Assembly: GCA_934518555.1 (NCBI GenBank)
Contig: CAKSXW010000021.1
Coordinates: 1-30,078, forward strand
Source of the DNA: an uncultured Faecalibacterium sp.
GTDB lineage: Bacteria; Bacillota; Clostridia; Oscillospirales; Ruminococcaceae
Direction of reading: 5' to 3'
DNA: 30,078 nt
The notes under the pieces are model-generated. The model made no database searches. It was not told the origin of the DNA and worked only from the letters and a program-made list of their open reading frames with translations. A program made the translations under genes and the position numbers. Shown piece by piece: positions 862 through 17,436 of this stretch (positions within the stretch are counted from its first letter, which is position 1; the number at the start of each line of letters is the position of its first letter).

Positions 862-908
862 GGTATTCCTCCTTCCTTTTTTCCGGGATTTTTGTTCAGA
901 TAAAACAA

Positions 909-947
909 AAAGATCCACGTTACACCTTTAATGTAGCGTAGATCTTT
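909..947 (-). terminator. Intrinsic terminator after the LuxR-type regulator
   Basis: AAAGATC pairs with GATCTTT at the base, and most of the intervening arms also pair, giving a stem of about 15 pairs with a small A/T-rich loop. Reading on the minus strand it is followed by CTTTTTGTTTTAT. It lies between the stop of the regulator gene and the start of the lipoprotein gene. Confidence 0.75.
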
Positions 948-969
948 CTGAAATGCTATTAACCTGAGG

Positions 970-3465
970 TTAGTATTTTTTTGCAAACAATTCTGCCAGC
1001 CGGGCACGCTTTGTGCGTGTGCCGCCGCCTATGCCCAGCTTGGAATAAAGCTGGTTGGTGTACTGCTTCACAGTGCCTTCAGAGAGGAACAGCCGGGCAG
1101 CGATCTCTTTGTTGGTGCAGCGGTCGGCAATGAGCCTTGCCAGCGTAAGCTCCCGTTCTGTCAGCCGGGCAGCCGCTTCGGGCAGTGCCTCGCTGCGGTT
1201 CAAGGCCCGGCAGCGTTCCTCCTGGGCTCTGCCCAGGGCAAGGATGCGCCGGACAGCGTCGGCATAGGGCCCCTCCTGCGCTGCCTCCAGCAAAGGCTCC
1301 AGGTACCGGAAGTTTTCTGCAAAGGGCACTACAAAGCCGTCCGGGGCGGCCTGAGCCAGAGCCTGTTCCAGCAGGCTGATTCCCTCATCCTGCCGGCCCA
1401 GCCGGGCACAGGCTGCCGCCATCTGGATCCGCAGATGCAGGGCCACAAGGTCATAGTGAAGGGCCTCGCACATGGCCAGCAGTCCCGGGCCGCGGCCCAG
1501 CACCCGTGCCCAGGCACCCTGTGCCAGATACACCTGATTTTCGATCAGCTCGATCATGGGCTTGCCGGGGGCCAGGGTGTTGACGGTATCCATGCGGTGG
1601 GCGGCGTACACCTCCGGGATGCTGTCTGTCTGCCCCCGCAGGGCGTAGTAATAGGCGCAGATGGCGTTGAACAGATTGCGCCATGCCATATTGTGCTGCC
1701 GGAGCATCTCTTCCCGCCGTACTTCCAGCGGGACCCGGGGCGTGTAGGGCCCGCAGAGGGACAGCCGCCACGCCAGAAAATCACAGCAGAGGGCCATATT
1801 GGTCTGACCGTTGCCCTCGATCTGTGCATAGGCACGCTCCAACAGGATCTGCGCATCGTCGAACCGCCCCTGCTGCAGATCCGCCTCTGCCCGCATGATG
1901 GTCTCCGCCCCCATGCCGTGCCCGTTGGTGATCTTATAATAGTGGGGCATACACTCATCCATCTCCGCCAGTTCCCGGTCCAGCTGACCGGGCTGACGGT
2001 GGAACATCATCAGCACCGAGGGAGAGCCGAAGGTCCATCCGCCGCTGTTCTGGATGCTGATGGCCGGGTGGGACATCTGTGCACTGGCGCTGCGGTGCAG
2101 GCGGCTCATGGCAGAGATATCATTGTACATGAGAAAGCTCAGGATCAGGTCGCACTCTCCCAGAAGGCTGCCTTTTTCTTCCTGAGACCACTCCGGATGC
2201 TCTGCCACCGTGGTCAGCAGAAGCTGCTTCAGCTCCATCATTTTGGGGATCTGCCGCCAGTTGAACATACAGCGCATCAGCACCAAAATGGCAAAGGGGT
2301 GCTGCTTGAGGGTCTCCACCGGGCAGCGACCCAGCCGTTCCAGCAGTTCCGCCGGGTCAAGGGAGGTCAGCAGGATCCCGGCATCCCGTTCAATGACCTG
2401 CAGCGCTGCATCGTAATCTTTGCACGCCTCGTAGGCAGTCAGGGCGTGGAGATACTGCCCCTTTGCCTCATACCACGCCCCGTACCGTTCCCGGCAGGCG
2501 TTCTGCTTTTCCGGTGCCAGCCGGGCAAACAGCCGCTCGGCACATTCCTTGAGCATATGGTGGAACCGGAAGGTCCTTCCGTCCGGCAGACGGGTCACGA
2601 AGGCATTCTGCTCGGTCAGGGTCAGCAGCATCTCCTCTGCCTCCGGCATTTCGGTCACAGCCCGTGCCATTTCCACCGTAAACTCATCCGCAAGCCCCAT
2701 CACAGCCAGAAACTCCTGCTTTCTCGCCGGCAGGTTTTCCAGCATGGCCGCTGCGAACATGGAGTAGATGTCTGCGTCCTCCCCCAGCAGGATGCCACGC
2801 TCCGCTAAAGAGTGGAGGTTCAGATAGATGGCAGAGAACCACCCCTCGCAGGAGCGCAGAAGGCTTTCCACCTGCGCCTCTGTCAGGTCTATGCCGCAGC
2901 GGTGGGCGTAGTGGGCAAGCTCCGTATGGTTGAGCCGCAGCTGCTCCTTGCCAATGCGGTGCAGGCGGTGCCCCAGCCGGAGGATCTCCTCTTTGGGCAG
3001 AAAGTTGTTCCGGCTTGCCACGATCAGATGGACATTCTCCGGCAGGCGGTTTGCCAGCCCACACAAGAACTTTGCCGTCTTTTCGTCCTTTAGCAGGTGG
3101 AAATCATCCAGAAACAGGTAGCAGGGCGTGTTCCCTGCCAGCACCATGCACAAATCATCCATCAGCTGGGCCGCACTGCTGGCATCTTCCGGGTATTCGC
3201 AGCCTGCCAGGGCCGTCAGCCCTGCTGCCCCAAAAGCATTCTGTACGCTTTTCCAAAAGATAGAGCGATTGTCGGAGTAAATATTCACTCGCAGGATGAC
3301 TGCATTTTCCGTCTGCCTGCGCTGGTTCAAAAACCAGTTGACCGCCGTGGTCTTGCCATAACCCATGGGAGCCACCACCGCCGTCAGTGTGCTGGCCGGG
3401 ATGGGGCGCAGGGTCTCCTGCACCCGCTCGGAAATATAGATCGCATTCAGGTCCAGCTTCCGCAT
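970..3465 (-). CDS. MalT/LuxR-family ATP-dependent transcriptional regulator
   Basis: This encodes 831 residues with the architecture of the LAL/MalT class of STAND regulators. The N-terminal NTPase has a Walker A motif APMGYGKTT at about residues 32-40 and a Walker B-like LFLDDFHLL near residue 110. A long helical, TPR-like middle follows. The C-terminus is a LuxR helix-turn-helix with LTERELTLARLIADR and the recognition segment NKEIAARLFLSEGTVKQY. Such proteins are switched on by ligand and ATP and then oligomerise on promoters; the inducer here is unknown. The ATG at 3465 has AAGGAG eight bases upstream; an ATG seven codons earlier is less well placed. Flanking genes encode exported proteins, which could be targets (inference). 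Its own terminator follows at 909-947. Confidence 0.9.
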   Translation of the reverse strand: MRKLDLNAIYISERVQETLRPIPASTLTAVVAPMGYGKTTAVNWFLNQRRQTENAVILRVNIYSDNRSIFWKSVQNAFGAAGLTALAGCEYPEDASSAAQLMDDLCMVLAGNTPCYLFLDDFHLLKDEKTAKFLCGLANRLPENVHLIVASRNNFLPKEEILRLGHRLHRIGKEQLRLNHTELAHYAHRCGIDLTEAQVESLLRSCEGWFSAIYLNLHSLAERGILLGEDADIYSMFAAAMLENLPARKQEFLAVMGLADEFTVEMARAVTEMPEAEEMLLTLTEQNAFVTRLPDGRTFRFHHMLKECAERLFARLAPEKQNACRERYGAWYEAKGQYLHALTAYEACKDYDAALQVIERDAGILLTSLDPAELLERLGRCPVETLKQHPFAILVLMRCMFNWRQIPKMMELKQLLLTTVAEHPEWSQEEKGSLLGECDLILSFLMYNDISAMSRLHRSASAQMSHPAISIQNSGGWTFGSPSVLMMFHRQPGQLDRELAEMDECMPHYYKITNGHGMGAETIMRAEADLQQGRFDDAQILLERAYAQIEGNGQTNMALCCDFLAWRLSLCGPYTPRVPLEVRREEMLRQHNMAWRNLFNAICAYYYALRGQTDSIPEVYAAHRMDTVNTLAPGKPMIELIENQVYLAQGAWARVLGRGPGLLAMCEALHYDLVALHLRIQMAAACARLGRQDEGISLLEQALAQAAPDGFVVPFAENFRYLEPLLEAAQEGPYADAVRRILALGRAQEERCRALNRSEALPEAAARLTERELTLARLIADRCTNKEIAARLFLSEGTVKQYTNQLYSKLGIGGGTRTKRARLAELFAKKY

Positions 3466-3514
3466 CGTTTCTGCTCCTTTTCCCATCCTGAGACGGGTAT
3501 GTTCCTTTAAACGC

Positions 3515-3523
3515 AGTATACCA
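3515..3523 (-). promoter_or_regulatory. Extended -10 promoter for the LuxR-type regulator
   Basis: On the minus strand the sequence reads TGGTATACT, a TGn extended -10 with hexamer TATACT, about 50 bases upstream of the chosen start codon. No good -35 is present, which is common for extended -10 promoters. Confidence 0.45.
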
Positions 3524-3609
3524 TAAATCAGAAAAAGGTGCATCTTGTTTTTCTTCCAGTTCGTCCCAGCAGAATGCGCCCACAAAGGCCTATGGGTCCA
3601 TAAAAGGCA

Positions 3610-3640
3610 AAGCGCCCTGCCGTGTCCCGGCAGGGCGTTT
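3610..3640 (-). terminator. Intrinsic terminator, 10-bp GC stem
   Basis: CGCCCTGCCG (3613-3622) pairs with CGGCAGGGCG (3628-3637) around a 5-base loop, and A/T flanks extend the stem. It lies 20-50 bases past the stop of the secreted-protein gene at 3663. The tail is T-rich on both strands, so it may also stop readthrough in the opposite direction. Confidence 0.75.
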
Positions 3641-3662
3641 TGCTTGATGCGTGATAGCGTTT

Positions 3663-4139
3663 TTACTCTGCAATGGGCATGGTCTGATAGAACCAATCTG
3701 CGATGGCCTTGCGGGTGTTGGAGAAGAACTTCTTCACCGGGCAGGCAGCACTGCGTGCCTCCTGCTCCAGATCTGTGCCTGCAGGGAAGTTGCGGATGAC
3801 GGTATATGCCACCGACTGGGGCGGCAGCGACATCATCACAGCTTGGTCGTGCACCACACAGATCTGCTCACCTACTGCAAGGGTAGCAGGGTCGGAACTG
3901 GTCTTTTCATCATGGTCCTGCCAGACGGTGCTGTCGGTGACGATCATCTCATAGGATTCCTGATCTTCTGCGGACACCAGAACCGTCTCCACGGTGCCGT
4001 CCTCGGTGCGGCTGATGCTTTCTACGGTGCCGTAGTAGTAGAGCCGCTTGGAAAACAGTGCCGAGGCAGAGGGCAGTGCGCTGACGCTGAGCAGCAGCAC
4101 TGCAAGCAGACAAACGAACGTGCGACTGGTCTTTTTCAT
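3663..4139 (-). CDS. Small secreted protein of unknown function
   Basis: This encodes 158 residues. The first 28 form a signal peptide (MKKTSRT, then a run of Leu/Val/Ser ending SASA), and no lipobox Cys is seen, so the protein is probably secreted or attached by other means. The mature part starts near LFSKRLYYYGTVESISR and looks like a small beta domain (GTVETVLVSAEDQESYEMIVTD), followed by a C-terminal helical region containing a Cys. I do not recognise the family. The start was chosen for the GGAGG site and signal peptide. The gene stands alone between two terminated units, with its own terminator at 3610-3640. Confidence 0.75.
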   Translation of the reverse strand: MKKTSRTFVCLLAVLLLSVSALPSASALFSKRLYYYGTVESISRTEDGTVETVLVSAEDQESYEMIVTDSTVWQDHDEKTSSDPATLAVGEQICVVHDQAVMMSLPPQSVAYTVIRNFPAGTDLEQEARSAACPVKKFFSNTRKAIADWFYQTMPIAE

Positions 4140-4194
4140 AAAAAGCCTCCATTTTTCATGTTGCAGCGGAGTGTACGGCACTCCCGGATGCCTT

Positions 4195-4203
4195 ATTTTA
4201 CCA
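4195..4203 (-). promoter_or_regulatory. Possible extended -10 promoter
   Basis: The minus strand reads TGGTAAAAT about 55 bases upstream of the secreted-protein start. It fits a TGn extended -10. A second weaker hexamer (TACACT) lies closer to the gene, so the choice is uncertain. Confidence 0.3.
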
Positions 4204-4305
4204 CACCTGCCGTTGGATTTCTATATCCAGGCTTAACGGGCCAGGAAGCATGGCAAAAAAGCAGCTGCGTAATAGGTTCTGCCGGGGCCGTTACGGCTGG
4301 GCCTT

Positions 4306-5160
4306 TCAGGTCTTGGGCTGGTACCGGATGCTGGATACATTATAAATGGTCACAAAGGCCTTGGGGTCCTCCCGGTTGATGAAGTTCATCAGCTTCTGGT
4401 ACTCGCTTTTGTCTACGATAGTAATGATCTCGTTGTGCTTTTCAAAGTTGTATGCGCCTATGGCCTCATACATGGTGGCACCGCTGTGCAGGTCCTCGAT
4501 GATAAACTTCCGGAGGGCCTCCTCCTTTTCGGTGATGATGCAGACCCGGCGTTTGATGCTGTTGTCAAAGATGAAATGGTCCAGCACTATTCCGTTGAAG
4601 TAGGTGCCCAGGATACTCAGCACCACGGTCTTTTTATCGTAGACCAGGGCAGCCGAAAGAGACACGCACATTCCTGCAAGGGACATGGCTTTTCCCAGCT
4701 CCATGTGCAGGTACTTGTTCAGGATCTTGGCCACGATGTCCAGTCCACCGGAGGATGCATTCCGGTTGAAAAGGATGCTCAGACCGATGCTGACCACCAG
4801 GATGTAGCAGACCACATCCAGCTCCTGGCTGCCGGTGATGGACTCGGCGTTGGGGAACAGCTTTTCAAAAAGCCCCAGGAACACCGACAGCAGGATGCTG
4901 GTGTAAATGGTCTTGGCGCCAAACTCCTTTCCGCAGGTGAAAAAACCGATGATCAACAGGATGGTGTTCAGGATCATGGTAATGGCCGACAGGGGCAGAG
5001 GCACAAAATTGGACAGCACGATGCCCAGGCCGGAAATGCTGCTGATGGATGTGTGGCTGGGCACCAGAAAAAAGTAAACTGCTGCCGCAATGATGGCAAC
5101 GGCCCCGGTAAGCACCAGGCCTTCCTTTGCCAGCTCCTTGGAATTCAACTTTTTGTTCAT
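4306..5160 (-). CDS. YitT family membrane protein with C-terminal DUF2179 domain
   Basis: This encodes 284 residues. Five to six hydrophobic segments span about residues 15-190, including the family-typical NRNASSGGLDIVAK stretch. A soluble C-terminal domain (about residues 205-280, with EKEEALRKFI and GATMYEAIGAYNFEKHNEI) matches the DUF2179 domain that closes YitT proteins. Length is normal for the family. The biochemical role of YitT proteins is not established; they sit in the cytoplasmic membrane and the C-terminal domain resembles a small regulatory or binding domain. GGAGGAG immediately precedes the ATG at 5160; an upstream in-frame start would bypass this site. The gene is monocistronic in layout. 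Confidence 0.9.
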   Translation of the reverse strand: MNKKLNSKELAKEGLVLTGAVAIIAAAVYFFLVPSHTSISSISGLGIVLSNFVPLPLSAITMILNTILLIIGFFTCGKEFGAKTIYTSILLSVFLGLFEKLFPNAESITGSQELDVVCYILVVSIGLSILFNRNASSGGLDIVAKILNKYLHMELGKAMSLAGMCVSLSAALVYDKKTVVLSILGTYFNGIVLDHFIFDNSIKRRVCIITEKEEALRKFIIEDLHSGATMYEAIGAYNFEKHNEIITIVDKSEYQKLMNFINREDPKAFVTIYNVSSIRYQPKT

Positions 5161-9354: not shown

Positions 9355-11118
9355 ATGCAGACAAAGATGCTGAAACAGCAGATCGCAGCTGCCAGGGGGG
9401 ATATCCCTGCGGACCTGGTGCTGAAGAACGCCCGGATCGTCAATGTGTTCACCCACGAGATCGAGGCAGGAGACGTGGCGATCCAAGGGGACCGGATCGT
9501 GGGCGTGGGCCGCTACAGCGGCGTCACGGAACGGGACCTGCAGGGCCAGTACCTGTGCCCGGGCTTGATCGACGGGCATATCCACATAGAAAGCTCCATG
9601 CTCTGCGGCCCGGCCTTTGAGCAGGCAGTACTGCCCCACGGCACCACCGCCGTCATCACCGACCCCCACGAGATCACCAATGTGGCCGGAACCGACGGCC
9701 TGGAGTTTATGCTGGAGACCACCCGGGGCCTGGACCTTTCGGTGTACTTTATGCTGCCCTCCTGCGTGCCTGCCACCGACCTGGACGAGTCCGGTGCTGT
9801 GCTGGAGGCCGAGGCCCTGGCCCCCTACTACCAGGACCCCCGGGTGCTGGGGCTGGCAGAACTGATGAACTCCTACGGCACCGTGCGTGGGGATGCCCAG
9901 ATCCTGGAAAAGCTCCGGGACTGCGCCGCCGCCGGAAAGCTGGTGGACGGCCATGCTCCCCTGCTCAGCGGCCGGGAGCTGAACGCCTACGTTGCCGCCG
10001 GGGTCCAGTCGGACCACGAGTGCTCCACCCTGGAAGAAGCCCTGGAAAAGCTCCGTCGGGGCCAGTACATCATGATCCGGGAGGGCACTGCCGCCAAGAA
10101 CCTGGACGCCCTGCTGCCCCTGTTCCGGGAGCCCTACTGCGACCGCTGTATGCTGGTGACCGACGACAAGCACCCCGGGGACCTGCTCCGGGGCGGCCAC
10201 ATCGACTACAGCATCCGCAAGGCCATCCGGGCCGGGGTGGACCCGGCCATTGCCGTAAAAATGGGCAGCCTGGTCCCGGCACGGTACTTCGGCCTTGCCC
10301 GGCAGGGTGCTGTGGCACCGGGCTACGCCGCCGACCTGGTGGTGGTGTCGGACCTGGAGCAGTTCACGGTGGAAAGCGTTTACAAAAAAGGCCGCCTGGT
10401 GGCCCGGCAGGGCCAGATGCTCCAGCCTGCTTCCCTTGCAGTGGACACCGCCCGGTTTGCCCGGGTGCTGGACTCCTTTGACATGGACCAGATCACCCTC
10501 CGGGACCTGGAGCTCCCGGCCTCCGGCAGCCTGGAACGGGTCATCTGCCTGACCCCCCATGAGCTGATGACCCAGGAGCAGATCCTGCCCTTCTGCCAGC
10601 ACCCCGGCACCGCCCCCGGGGTGGATGTAGCTCACCAGGTGGTAAAGCTGGCAGTCTTTGAGCGGCACCACCACACCGGTCATGTAGGCCTAGGCTTTTT
10701 GGGCAACTACGGCCTGACCTGCGGTGCCGTGGCCTCCAGCATCGCCCACGACTCTCACAACCTGATCGTGGCAGGCACCAACGACGCCGATATGGTGCTG
10801 GCTGGCAATACAGTGCGTAAAAACAAGGGTGGTCTTGCCTTTGTAGCGAATGGAAAGGTCATTGGGGAGCTGGCTTTGCCGGTGGCTGGCCTTATGAGCA
10901 CCGAAAGTGCCCAGGCAGTGGACCAGCAGGTCCAGGCCCTGAAGGCCGCTTTGAAGGCCAGCGGCATCTCTGAGGACATCGACCCCTTTATGACCCTGGC
11001 CTTTGTGAGCCTGCCGGTGATCCCCAAGCTGCGGCTGAACACCTACGGCATCGTGGACGTAGAGCAGCACACCATCGTCCCGGCAGTCTTTGACCCGGAC
11101 CCCTCTGCAACAGAATAA
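9355..11118 (+). CDS. ade: Adenine deaminase
   Basis: This encodes 587 residues, the usual length of the AdeC-type enzyme that turns adenine into hypoxanthine and ammonia in purine salvage. Metal-ligand motifs typical of the amidohydrolase fold are visible: GHIHIESSML (about 74-83) and TDPHEITNV (about 102-110), with downstream HAPLLSG and SDHE. The C-terminal half contains GLGFLGNYGLTCGAVASS and SIAHDSHNL, which are family hallmarks. AGGAG precedes the ATG at 9355. The gene has its own promoter and is followed by a strong terminator shared with the convergent alcohol dehydrogenase. Arginine is written almost only as CGG, like most genes here. Confidence 0.96.
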   Translation: MQTKMLKQQIAAARGDIPADLVLKNARIVNVFTHEIEAGDVAIQGDRIVGVGRYSGVTERDLQGQYLCPGLIDGHIHIESSMLCGPAFEQAVLPHGTTAVITDPHEITNVAGTDGLEFMLETTRGLDLSVYFMLPSCVPATDLDESGAVLEAEALAPYYQDPRVLGLAELMNSYGTVRGDAQILEKLRDCAAAGKLVDGHAPLLSGRELNAYVAAGVQSDHECSTLEEALEKLRRGQYIMIREGTAAKNLDALLPLFREPYCDRCMLVTDDKHPGDLLRGGHIDYSIRKAIRAGVDPAIAVKMGSLVPARYFGLARQGAVAPGYAADLVVVSDLEQFTVESVYKKGRLVARQGQMLQPASLAVDTARFARVLDSFDMDQITLRDLELPASGSLERVICLTPHELMTQEQILPFCQHPGTAPGVDVAHQVVKLAVFERHHHTGHVGLGFLGNYGLTCGAVASSIAHDSHNLIVAGTNDADMVLAGNTVRKNKGGLAFVANGKVIGELALPVAGLMSTESAQAVDQQVQALKAALKASGISEDIDPFMTLAFVSLPVIPKLRLNTYGIVDVEQHTIVPAVFDPDPSATE

Positions 11119-14701: not shown

Positions 14702-15196
14702 TCAGCCCTGGCTGCACAGGTCCTTCCACCGCTCTGCCGGGATCACCGGCTCGGTGACAAAGGCCTCTGGGTCCGGGGCCAGCACGTGCCGGGTCACCTG
14801 AAAGAGCTTGTTGGCGTCGCAAAGGATGCACTTGGCATCGCCAAATTTCGTATTCTTGGCGGCACCGCAGTCCAGGTAGGCCTGCTCCAGCTTTACAAAC
14901 TCCTCCGAGATATGGGGCTGGTCCGCATTGTAGTGGCGGCGCATATAAACAGTGTGGCGGTCCCCGGCCTGGTCCACCACCGTCAGCTTCAGGGGCTTAT
15001 CCGTAAGCCGATGGGGCACGTTCAGCACCTCCTCCACGCTGTGGATAAAGGTGTTCCGGGCATGGGTGACCCCCAGCAGCAGCACCTTGCCCTGGGCAGA
15101 CCGCAGCCGGTCGTAGCAGCCCCCGGGGGTGCAGGGGGTGTTGGCCTCCATCTCCCCGGCCACATAGGCCTCTGCCCCTTTGCCGTAGGCTGCCAT
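14702..15196 (-). CDS. Half-length AAC(3)-like N-acetyltransferase (N-terminal half missing)
   Basis: The 164 residues match the C-terminal half of the aminoglycoside 3-N-acetyltransferase (YokD/AAC(3)) fold: AAYGKGAEAYVAGEM, the conserved GKVLLLGVTHARNTFIHSVEE and the closing FGDAKCILCDANKLFQVTRH. Full-length members are about 260-270 residues, and the MAAYGKG start aligns with an internal position just after the HPTHS-type motif that carries an active-site His. That motif and the acetyl-CoA-binding N-terminal half are absent, and no matching coding sequence lies upstream. Nevertheless an AAGGAG site and a promoter precede the ATG. It may be a truncated gene that gained a new promoter, or a shortened functional variant. 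Classical drug resistance is unlikely. Confidence 0.75.
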   Translation of the reverse strand: MAAYGKGAEAYVAGEMEANTPCTPGGCYDRLRSAQGKVLLLGVTHARNTFIHSVEEVLNVPHRLTDKPLKLTVVDQAGDRHTVYMRRHYNADQPHISEEFVKLEQAYLDCGAAKNTKFGDAKCILCDANKLFQVTRHVLAPDPEAFVTEPVIPAERWKDLCSQG

Positions 15197-15221
15197 GCTG
15201 CTTCTCCTTTTGTTTTTTTCT

Positions 15222-15250
15222 ATTGTACCGTCTCTCTCCGGACAAAACAA
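15222..15250 (-). promoter_or_regulatory. Promoter of the half-length acetyltransferase gene
   Basis: TTGTTT, a 17-base spacer and TACAAT on the minus strand. The -35 overlaps the tail of the upstream terminator. The leader to the ATG is about 25 bases and includes AAGGAG. Confidence 0.5.
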
Positions 15251-15312
15251 GCCCCACCCTCCGGGCCGCCTTTGCCCTCCCCGGGGAGGCAAGGCCCTGA
15301 AAGGTGGGGCTT
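15245..15312 (-). terminator. Long double-stem terminator after the TraX gene
   Basis: AAGCCCCACC pairs with GGTGGGGCTT (15249-15258 with 15303-15312), and an inner palindromic stem (TTGCC...GGCAA around CCCCGGGG) stacks inside. On the minus strand the tail is GTTTTG. The first arm starts 4 bases past the TraX stop. Confidence 0.8.
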
Positions 15313-15315
15313 TGG

Positions 15316-16086
15316 TCAACGGTTTACAAAACTCAGCACCAGGAACAGCAGCAGCATGTGCACCGGGTAGAACCCGTAGCAGGCGTACTGGAAGGGCTTG
15401 CTGTGGTAACCCTGCCGCCCACGGTAGAGCCAGATGGGCACCAGAGCCAACAGCGACAGCCCCTGCTGGCACAGCTCAAAGTCCATGCCCAGCAGCTGCA
15501 CCGGGTACACCAGGCCTCCCAGCAGCTCCACATTCAGCCAGTACAAGGCCAGCACCTGCCCCAGCAGGCACCACCAGGTCCGCTGCCGGAAAAAGTAGAA
15601 CACAAAGATGGTCAACACGCCTACGCCGTAGTAGTCCACCATGCACAGGGTGCCCAGAGCTGCCCCAGCCAGGACCACCCCGGCCGACACCAGCACATAC
15701 GCCCAGGTCTTTTGGGTTTTGCGGGCCTTTTCCATCAGGTGGATGCCCAAAAGCCCCATCAGCAGGGTCCAGATCACATTCTGGTGCACCGGGTAGAACC
15801 AGGTGCCGCCGTACATCAGGTCAAAGGGCACCTCTGCCACCACTGCAAACAGCAGCATCCGCAGGGCGTATTTTTTAAAGTCGTGGGTGTGGAAGTAGCC
15901 CTCCACCGCCAAAAACGCAAAGATGGGATAGGCCAGCCGCCCGGCGCAGGTCAGCCATTCCTGGGCCGGCAACAGGGTGGCCCAGAGATGGTCCATCAGC
16001 ATCAGGGTCATGGCGATGAGATGGAGTGCCGCTGCGCTCAGGTCCCAGCGGACTGCGGCAGTGGGTCTGATGGAATTGGTTGACAT
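15316..16086 (-). CDS. TraX family integral membrane protein
   Basis: This encodes 256 residues with seven or eight hydrophobic helices. Family features include MTLMLMDHLWATL, GRLAYPIFAFLAVEGYFHT, VAEVPFDLMY, FYPVHQNVIWTLL and the C-terminal YGFYPVHMLLLFL. TraX is named after a plasmid protein that acetylates pilin, but chromosomal Firmicute members occur alone, and the family resembles membrane acyltransferases. There is no pilin or transfer gene in this window. A GAGGT site lies eight bases before the ATG at 16086. The gene is monocistronic with its own terminator. Confidence 0.92.
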   Translation of the reverse strand: MSTNSIRPTAAVRWDLSAAALHLIAMTLMLMDHLWATLLPAQEWLTCAGRLAYPIFAFLAVEGYFHTHDFKKYALRMLLFAVVAEVPFDLMYGGTWFYPVHQNVIWTLLMGLLGIHLMEKARKTQKTWAYVLVSAGVVLAGAALGTLCMVDYYGVGVLTIFVFYFFRQRTWWCLLGQVLALYWLNVELLGGLVYPVQLLGMDFELCQQGLSLLALVPIWLYRGRQGYHSKPFQYACYGFYPVHMLLLFLVLSFVNR

Positions 16087-16355: not shown

Positions 16356-16404
16356 GGGACACCTCCGTTTTTTGCACAAGCATCTGCACCTTCCGCTTTG
16401 GGGC

Positions 16405-16789
16405 GACCGGCTATTCTGGATACGGCAAGAGGCCGATGCAGCTTCCACCATTTGCTCTGCCGGCAGCAGCAAGGTGCAGGCACCTTACCCCTGCCAGCGG
16501 AAAAAGGCCCATAGAGATCTATGGTGCTCTTGTATTTCAAAAGGGCCTGCTTGCCCATGGAGACGTCAGCACGGAAGCAGGGATGTGAGAAAGGGCAAAG
16601 GACGTTTTCAGCGCAAGAACGGCGGGCGATGGCCAAAGCGGCGATGGCTGCTGGTTCTCATTTCTCTTGCTGGCTCGTAAGGTGAGCCGGACCGAAAACT
16701 TCCTTGCGGAACTGTGCAGCCTTATCGTTCATCTGCACCTGAACCGATGTACGCATTCTCTTGTCTTGCCGCACCCAGAATAGCCGGTC
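16405..16789 (-). ncRNA. Candidate structured RNA (or mobile-element remnant) bounded by 26-nt inverted arms
   Basis: Arms at 16405-16430 and 16764-16789 are inverted copies that differ at two positions. On the minus strand both differences become G-U pairs, so a transcript would close with a complete 26-pair helix; on the plus strand they are A-C mismatches. Inside are local hairpins: 16724-16748 (eight pairs, one bulge), 16700-16711 (TTCC-GCAA-GGAA on the minus strand), 16672-16688 (GGCTC/GAGCC), 16509-16524 (CCATAG/CTATGG) and 16469-16488 (eight pairs). It begins 9 bases after the stop of the 212-residue protein gene and lies upstream of the 51-residue membrane protein. I compared it by memory with RNase P, tmRNA, SRP and 6S RNA and saw no match. 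No flanking target duplication is visible. It also answers what fills the 440 bases without a clear gene. Confidence 0.5.
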
Positions 16790-16797
16790 AGAGGGCC

Positions 16798-17436
16798 TTA
16801 TGCCTGGAGGCTTTCCAGGTAGGTCTCAAAGGCATCGGCAAAGCTGGCATTCACGTCAAAGGGGGCGGCGTAGTCCACCTTGGAGGTCACCAGGCACAGG
16901 TCGATGCGGTTGGAGGTCTCGTCAGCCTGCTGGTTCAGCTTGGTCAGGGCCGCACGAATGACCTTGCGGTCGTAGTTGATGGTGGTCACACGCTTTACGT
17001 CGCAGCAATAGGAGATCTGGTTGCCCTCGGCGTTGAAGCGGTAGCCGGTGCCGCCGCCGGAAAGCATCTGCTCAGAGCTCCGCAGGTCGTTCATCCGCTT
17101 AAAGGTCCGGGCCACGCTCTGCCGGGCGGTGTTCAGACTCACCTGGCTGTCCATGTCCAGGTCCAAAGCGTCCTTGGCCCGGCGGATGGCGGCAAAGAGC
17201 TTGGCCTTTTCCTCCAGCAGGTACAGCATGAATTGGGCGATCTGGGTGATCTGCTCCGAATATTCGGTCTGGGGCACATCCATCACCGTCTCGTCCTGGG
17301 CCTCGGCCATGACCTTGTGGCGCAGATAGGTGTTGGCTACCTTGGTCACGTTGGCGTCACATTCCAGGATGCCCTGGGCTTCGTCCAGCAGGGCCTGGAG
17401 TTTGTTCTGGTAGCGGAAGGCTTCTTTCAGATTCAT
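16798..17436 (-). CDS. Unrecognised helical cytosolic protein
   Basis: This encodes 212 residues with no signal or membrane segment. It is mainly helical: MNLKEAFRYQNKLQALLDEA, then a segment with ITQIAQFMLYLLEEKAKLF, a long charged helix ALDLDMDSQVSLNTARQSV, a short region with GGGTGYRFNAEGNQISYCCDV, and a C-terminal KVDYAAPFDVNASFADAF part. The mid-region GGGTGYRF...DVKRVTTINYD looks like a beta hairpin. I cannot assign a family. GAGGTGG precedes the ATG at 17436. The stop lies 9 bases before the arm of the inverted-repeat segment, and no ordinary terminator follows, so readthrough into that segment is likely. Confidence 0.75.
   Translation of the reverse strand: MNLKEAFRYQNKLQALLDEAQGILECDANVTKVANTYLRHKVMAEAQDETVMDVPQTEYSEQITQIAQFMLYLLEEKAKLFAAIRRAKDALDLDMDSQVSLNTARQSVARTFKRMNDLRSSEQMLSGGGTGYRFNAEGNQISYCCDVKRVTTINYDRKVIRAALTKLNQQADETSNRIDLCLVTSKVDYAAPFDVNASFADAFETYLESLQA

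Follow-up and report, generated by a model that had tools for sequence, protein, structure and literature searches.

The window, the whole 30,078-nucleotide stretch of an uncultured Faecalibacterium sp. contig that was analysed, carries on its minus strand a gene for a 212-aa protein (17436-16798), followed by a 385-nt structured RNA element (5' end 16789, 3' end 16405), a small ORF read from the sequence (16355-16200), a GC-rich hairpin (16189-16158) and a TraX-like gene detected by Pfam scan. The 212-aa gene lies immediately upstream of the RNA as its partner and ends at 16798, with the RNA starting 8 nt past the stop, so its placement directly after a stop codon in the original prediction was right. 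The surroundings are partly collinear with three Faecalibacterium genomes, whose versions of the protein share 87-88% identity with that of the window. Elsewhere in the window, 14702-15472 encodes an aminoglycoside 3-N-acetyltransferase-type domain that scored over the Pfam cut-off and far below the NCBIfam resistance-gene cut-offs.

The two ends of the RNA form a closing helix (P1) from 26-nt arms at 16764-16789 (5' arm) and 16405-16430 (3' arm) that lie 333 nt apart and are 92% (24/26) complementary, as originally described from the inverted copies. The two mismatched positions are G-U on the minus strand and A-C on the plus strand, again as first read. Folding of the minus strand (16395-16800) gave -178.5 kcal/mol with a z of -6.0 against dinucleotide shuffles, compared to a weaker z of -2.9 for the plus strand, with 0/100 shuffles folding as well on either strand. 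The most conserved part of the RNA, just inside the 5' arm, is the core CCGGUUCAGGUGCAGAUGAACUAUAACGCUGCAC (16714-16744), an H-type pseudoknot in which GUUC pairs with GAAC (S1, 16741-16744 with 16727-16730) and GUGCAG with CUGCAC (S2, 16733-16738 with 16714-16719). Both the pseudoknot and the tie to the upstream gene were absent from the first reading and were found here. Beside the pseudoknot, duplex prediction placed the 5' side of a putative short helix, P2, at 16746-16749, with its predicted 3' side held in a conserved word, AAAUGGUGGAAGC (16441-16453), recognised by alignment. The anticipated GCAA tetraloop hairpin is present as UUCC-GCAA-GGAA (16700-16711; sequence and fold), along with a GGCUC/GAGCC hairpin (16672-16688) that is also found in closer relatives and reads GACUC/GAGUC in locus L021. 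By eye, many short UUCG/AUCG-like words with a spacing of about 10 nt occupy the 3' half of the RNA (16500-16640) in the window and relatives, and a word ACAUCUCCAU/GACGUCUCCAU recurs there in both.

Searches against known RNAs agreed with the initial failure to recognise one. Rfam 15 gave no family at the gathering threshold anywhere in the window, with only five weak miRNA/snoRNA/sRNA matches at E ≤ 5; the ROOL and GOLLD models had no match in the window and ARAGORN detected no tRNA or tmRNA there. No tandem repeat family of at least 12 nt, a feature of type III antitoxins, was found within 16405-16789, and a Pfam scan of 10 neighbouring window proteins revealed no adjacent reverse transcriptase, as would be a retron feature. 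The open-licence literature returned nothing for KEAFRYQN, DUF6847 or 3KDQ and, among the titles listed, none on the gene-RNA pair; its one paper mentioning DIP1984 does so, in the passage considered, as a plasmid ORF only.

The 212-aa protein matched no Pfam family at E ≤ 1 and no NCBIfam or PADLOC family, with weak, scattered PADLOC matches in single members only, and no toxin fold was found for it. For 37 members, PF20935 was absent among the matches listed (best 25 of 43 families). A PDB sequence search with the window family gave no match, and neither PDB nor BFVD yielded a Foldseek match at E ≤ 0.001; the fold is tentatively predicted to be DIP1984-like. An RNA-level cause for the invariant N-terminus, KEAFRYQN, was considered and is unsupported, as its codons vary. 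This N-terminus (MNLKEAFRYQNKL) is shared by a 76-aa ORF whose C-terminus is different and basic (L050:2782-3010) and by a truncated gene (L048:5001-5120), both read as recombinant or remnant genes.

A total of 50 genome and 17 viral loci were fetched with the 212-aa protein. By blastn the RNA matched the majority of the genome loci and a single viral one, most strongly near AATGCGTACATCGGTTCAGGTGCAGATGAACGAT and in the arms, and in the listed loci the element starts within tens of bases past the stop. When viral contigs were scanned with an exact-match pattern of the core, 12/12 matches adjoined the gene, six of them on contigs already known by protein; one locus (L084) has only 42 nt upstream and lies on the same contig as L061, which has the gene. 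A second pattern applied to 295 genomes of the order gave two matches, both adjoining the gene. This pattern was strict and missed seven of the nine gene-positive order genomes, and the core was present downstream of the gene in all nine. The gene and the RNA are adjacent across these loci. A clean empty site was not obtained, as one genome (G691) has no gene but a rearranged neighbourhood. Against phage and plasmid records the RNA gave short blastn matches only (8-13% coverage), and the window protein was absent from INPHARED phages.

P1 was compared across 60 of 68 downstream segments (seven without a recognised core and one that was too short were dropped) by searching for pairing between the stretch ahead of the core and the 3' region. 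Helices of at least 15 pairs were found in 54/60 loci, and z was ≤ -3 against shuffles in 52/60. Under symmetric inverted-repeat scoring, which does not favour G-U, the score was at least 11 in 55/60 loci, compared to a mean of 7.8 and a maximum of 11.0 in a control of one base-shuffle per locus. The arms differ widely among loci, each with its own matching complement, as for GTCAACTGCCGTTTCGGATGCGGCGGGG (L019), CCGTGCCTTGTGTCTGAAAACAAA (L042) and TCGGCTGTCTTGTTCAGGGCGAAAGTG (viral L061), and P1 is kept by compensatory change. The 43 distinct helices comprised 1043 Watson-Crick, 69 G-U, 25 A-C and 34 other pairs. G-U exceeded A-C (binomial p 3e-6; 28 loci vs 9), a p-value that is indicative because the loci share ancestry and that treats pairs and loci which are not fully independent. 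This excess bears out a strand hunch that had rested on two positions: selection acts on base pairing in the strand that is transcribed. In viral loci such as L054, L060 and L061 the 5' arm can instead form a local hairpin (AGACAACUUCGGUUGUCU in L054), with which the closing helix may therefore compete.

For the pseudoknot, 48 distinct cores were aligned without gaps, after removal of 12/68 segments without the anchor and of identical cores. Paired cells made up 98.1% compared to 88.9% in shuffles, and double changes were seen at 5/10 pairs (3.0 in shuffles) and in 39 cells (8.5 in shuffles). Sliding the partners by 1-3 columns lowered pairing to 23-46%. At the first S1 pair, 38 cores have G-C and 10 have C-G; the first S2 pair occurs as G-C, A-U, C-G, G-U and U-A, and the second as U-A or C-G, while further pair types were no higher than in shuffles (9 vs 8.9). 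The anchor (TTC and GAA plus C or G) fixes much of S1 and nothing of S2, and part of the invariance seen at the other three S1 pairs is therefore built in. The pseudoknot is kept by compensatory change. From the genome and viral loci, L016 and L038 (contig ends), L048-L050 (N-terminus only) and L058 and L059 (near-copies of L057) were excluded. L075, L078, L085, L090-L092 and L094 stayed outside the helix and pair counts because the script required M-x-L/I-KEAFR at the start; the core is present in six of these and in the partial gene L095, with the pattern match in L085 sitting further downstream. L091, L092, L094 and L095 have a G-U end pair, which the anchor excludes.

The pair is patchily distributed, with the protein in 9/295 genomes of the order and 5/31 of the genus, and the RNA structure is kept in dozens of relatives and viral contigs despite differing letters. 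Genes for tRNA lie within the fetched stretch of 8/23 viral loci and 8/34 genome loci, a count in which L074 and L062 are one contig. In L025, 31 tRNA genes surround the gene-RNA pair (880-4345 and 9941-10610), resembling a large-phage tRNA array. An XRE-type gene family was present in 21/84 sources compared and was convergent to the RNA in several; such helix-turn-helix genes (PVIDLVATGxNIRRLR) were seen in L004 (5975-6361, minus strand), L006, L028, L017, L021 and L023, and in L004 the longest ORF overlaps the 3' arm of the RNA.

A parallel gene-RNA arrangement is found in DUF6847 (PF20935; 3kdq), where the gene order is the same and a non-coding, RNA-like stretch with shared words again follows the stop of DUF6847/DIP1984 genes. 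The PF20935 search of phylum genomes gave 24/398 over the cut-off, and DUF6847 was present in 371/72,556 plasmid records; DIP1984 genes lie on Picosynechococcus, Paracoccus, Streptomyces and Psychrobacter plasmids and an Enterococcus phage contig. We compared 22 representatives, omitting six that were near-identical (L100, L109, L117, L120, L121, L125) and L126-L131, which had no clean ORF. The DUF6847 pseudoknots come from a structure search and not from blind alignment. In 15/22 representatives, as counted by eye, a G-N-GA-R word precedes the best pseudoknot by no more than about 10 nt, and the stems vary yet match, as in ACCC-G-CCAACU-GGGU-G-AGUUGG (L116), AACCU-U-GCUCAC-AGGUU-AA-GUGAGU (L118) and AGCU-AA-CCAACG-AGCU-AAAAC-UGUUGG (L110). 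Individually, 13/22 beat at least 38/40 base shuffles and 9/22 fell short of this mark, including the Paracoccus and Enterococcus phage loci; on the Streptomyces plasmid (L112), AACCG-A-GGGCCGG-CGGUU-A-CCGGCCC was equalled by 0/40 shuffles. An AGGGnGGG word follows in 25/29 DUF6847 loci and is missing from the Psychrobacter and phage loci, and some stretches have a hairpin that by eye resembles a tRNA T-arm. In the 11 loci searched against Rfam, none of these stretches had a match.

By prediction, the window family may have the DIP1984-like fold of DUF6847, and in both families the stretch carries an H-type pseudoknot close to its 5' end; a pseudoknot right after the stop was found for the window family and, for DUF6847, in the 13/22 representatives and L112. 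However, the window protein is about 60 aa shorter, profile comparison gives no link, and the DUF6847 words (GCGAGNNC, AGGGnGGG and, in some, the T-arm-like hairpin) differ from those of the window. The sole strong PDB match for DUF6847 was 3kdq, and the solved DIP1984 protein structure was released in 2009 as 'functionally unknown'. DIP1984 has a possible link to RNA repair; RtcB co-occurred in 14/22 DUF6847 genomes (of the 24 over the cut-off) compared to 15/28 without, with no clear enrichment. Tandem DUF6847 genes about 2 kb apart were seen at L099/L109 and L100/L108, each gene with its own diverged stretch and the second without the AGGGnGGG word.

It is likely that the stretch of about 385 nt makes a structured RNA, and the relatives, the compensatory changes in arms and core and the strand-specific tolerance of G-U support the minus-strand RNA originally proposed. 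By a narrow margin over an even chance, we favour the view that the segment is the RNA half of a two-part cassette, co-transcribed with the gene, released, and assembled into a ribonucleoprotein with the encoded DIP1984-like protein, so that the RNA is predicted to work together with the product of the upstream gene. The gene transcript would run on into the RNA, and the closeness of the RNA to the stop (8 nt) makes co-transcription likely. As P1 joins both ends of the RNA, a double-strand nuclease could then free it from the mRNA tail; precursors that RNase III processes, pre-rRNA among them, likewise have an RNA enclosed by a long helix, and by analogy with them the RNA may be excised. The protein would have its putative site at the best-conserved parts, P2 and the pseudoknot. 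The target might be translation or tRNA metabolism, a weak guess prompted by the tRNA genes near some copies and the T-arm-like hairpins in some DUF6847 RNAs.

ROOL RNAs are larger than the window RNA, and HEARO RNA is encoded beside IsrB. In the passages of PMC12286853 considered here, ROOL and GOLLD are large RNAs of unassigned function in phages and prophages, often by tRNA islands, and pseudoknots are reported for ROOL. The window RNA resembles them in being large, in its pseudoknot (ROOL) and in the viral setting and nearby tRNA genes of some of its copies; it differs in that the same passages describe ROOL without an identified protein partner, and GOLLD is larger (PMC12286853). Also described there are OLE, a large bacterial RNA working with proteins, and HEARO RNA, which acts bound to the protein IsrB (PMC12286853). 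OapA of OLE is a membrane protein, in contrast to the window system, which also differs from HEARO/IsrB in that no nuclease family was found for it, and the window RNA has no Rfam match to either.

The chief rival to a released ribonucleoprotein is a 3' UTR autoregulatory element, in which the RNA stays in the mRNA and the stability or translation of that mRNA is adjusted, either by the protein it encodes or by a helix/pseudoknot that blocks exonucleases. The start within tens of bases past the stop and the restriction of pattern matches to sites beside the gene both fit this reading, and such motifs are known, among them the L17 downstream element, which in the part of PMC2864571 considered is a conserved structure past a stop codon within potential 3' UTRs, like the window RNA although after a different gene. 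In our judgement, however, simple feedback would hardly call for a few hundred nucleotides that combine a long closing helix with a pseudoknot and further conserved words, and we regard this explanation as possible but unlikely.

We consider it improbable that the pair works on its own as a toxin-antitoxin or anti-defence conflict module, with the RNA and the protein neutralising one another or a factor of the host. Its patchy occurrence, its carriage on viral contigs (and that of DUF6847 on plasmids) and the finding, by neighbour comparison, of no third partner common to all loci are what such a module would lead one to expect, but the window protein matches no PADLOC family and no toxin fold was found for it. 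In type III systems the antitoxin is a tandem-repeat RNA encoded before the toxin, whereas this RNA is a single unit after its gene. A riboswitch-like leader of the small ORF was suggested by a ribosome-binding-site-like GGAGG and an ATG within about 50 nt of the 3' arm; it was rejected as very improbable, since one genome (G692) keeps gene and RNA with the ORF not detected, and in other relatives other genes, some convergent, follow the RNA. Least credible of all is the alternative named at the outset, a decayed miniature mobile element, or else a chance inverted repeat. Such elements typically have long inverted repeats, but the RNA occupies one place, after the same gene, in 3/3 Faecalibacterium genomes searched (the two matches per genome being the two ends of that place). 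Dispersed copies with conserved terminal repeats were not found in these genomes, and the arms are not such repeats, as they differ between species yet stay complementary, with G-U in excess of A-C.

The co-transcribed RNA-protein cassette that we favour may extend further: we give about even chances to DIP1984-fold proteins and 3'-encoded pseudoknot RNAs making up one class of RNA-protein machine that is ancient, mobile and phylum-spanning, with the window RNA as its gut-bacterium/phage branch and the pair unrecognised by the RNA and protein libraries searched. The tie between a conserved RNA and a single uncharacterised protein family provides a first testable role for both. With the DUF6847 parallel, the arrangement is no longer confined to gut Firmicutes and viral contigs but also takes in cyanobacterial, proteobacterial and actinobacterial plasmids. 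Should the protein and RNA form a particle, bacteria would have a ribonucleoprotein of a new kind; should they not, the structures that follow these stop codons still make up a new class.
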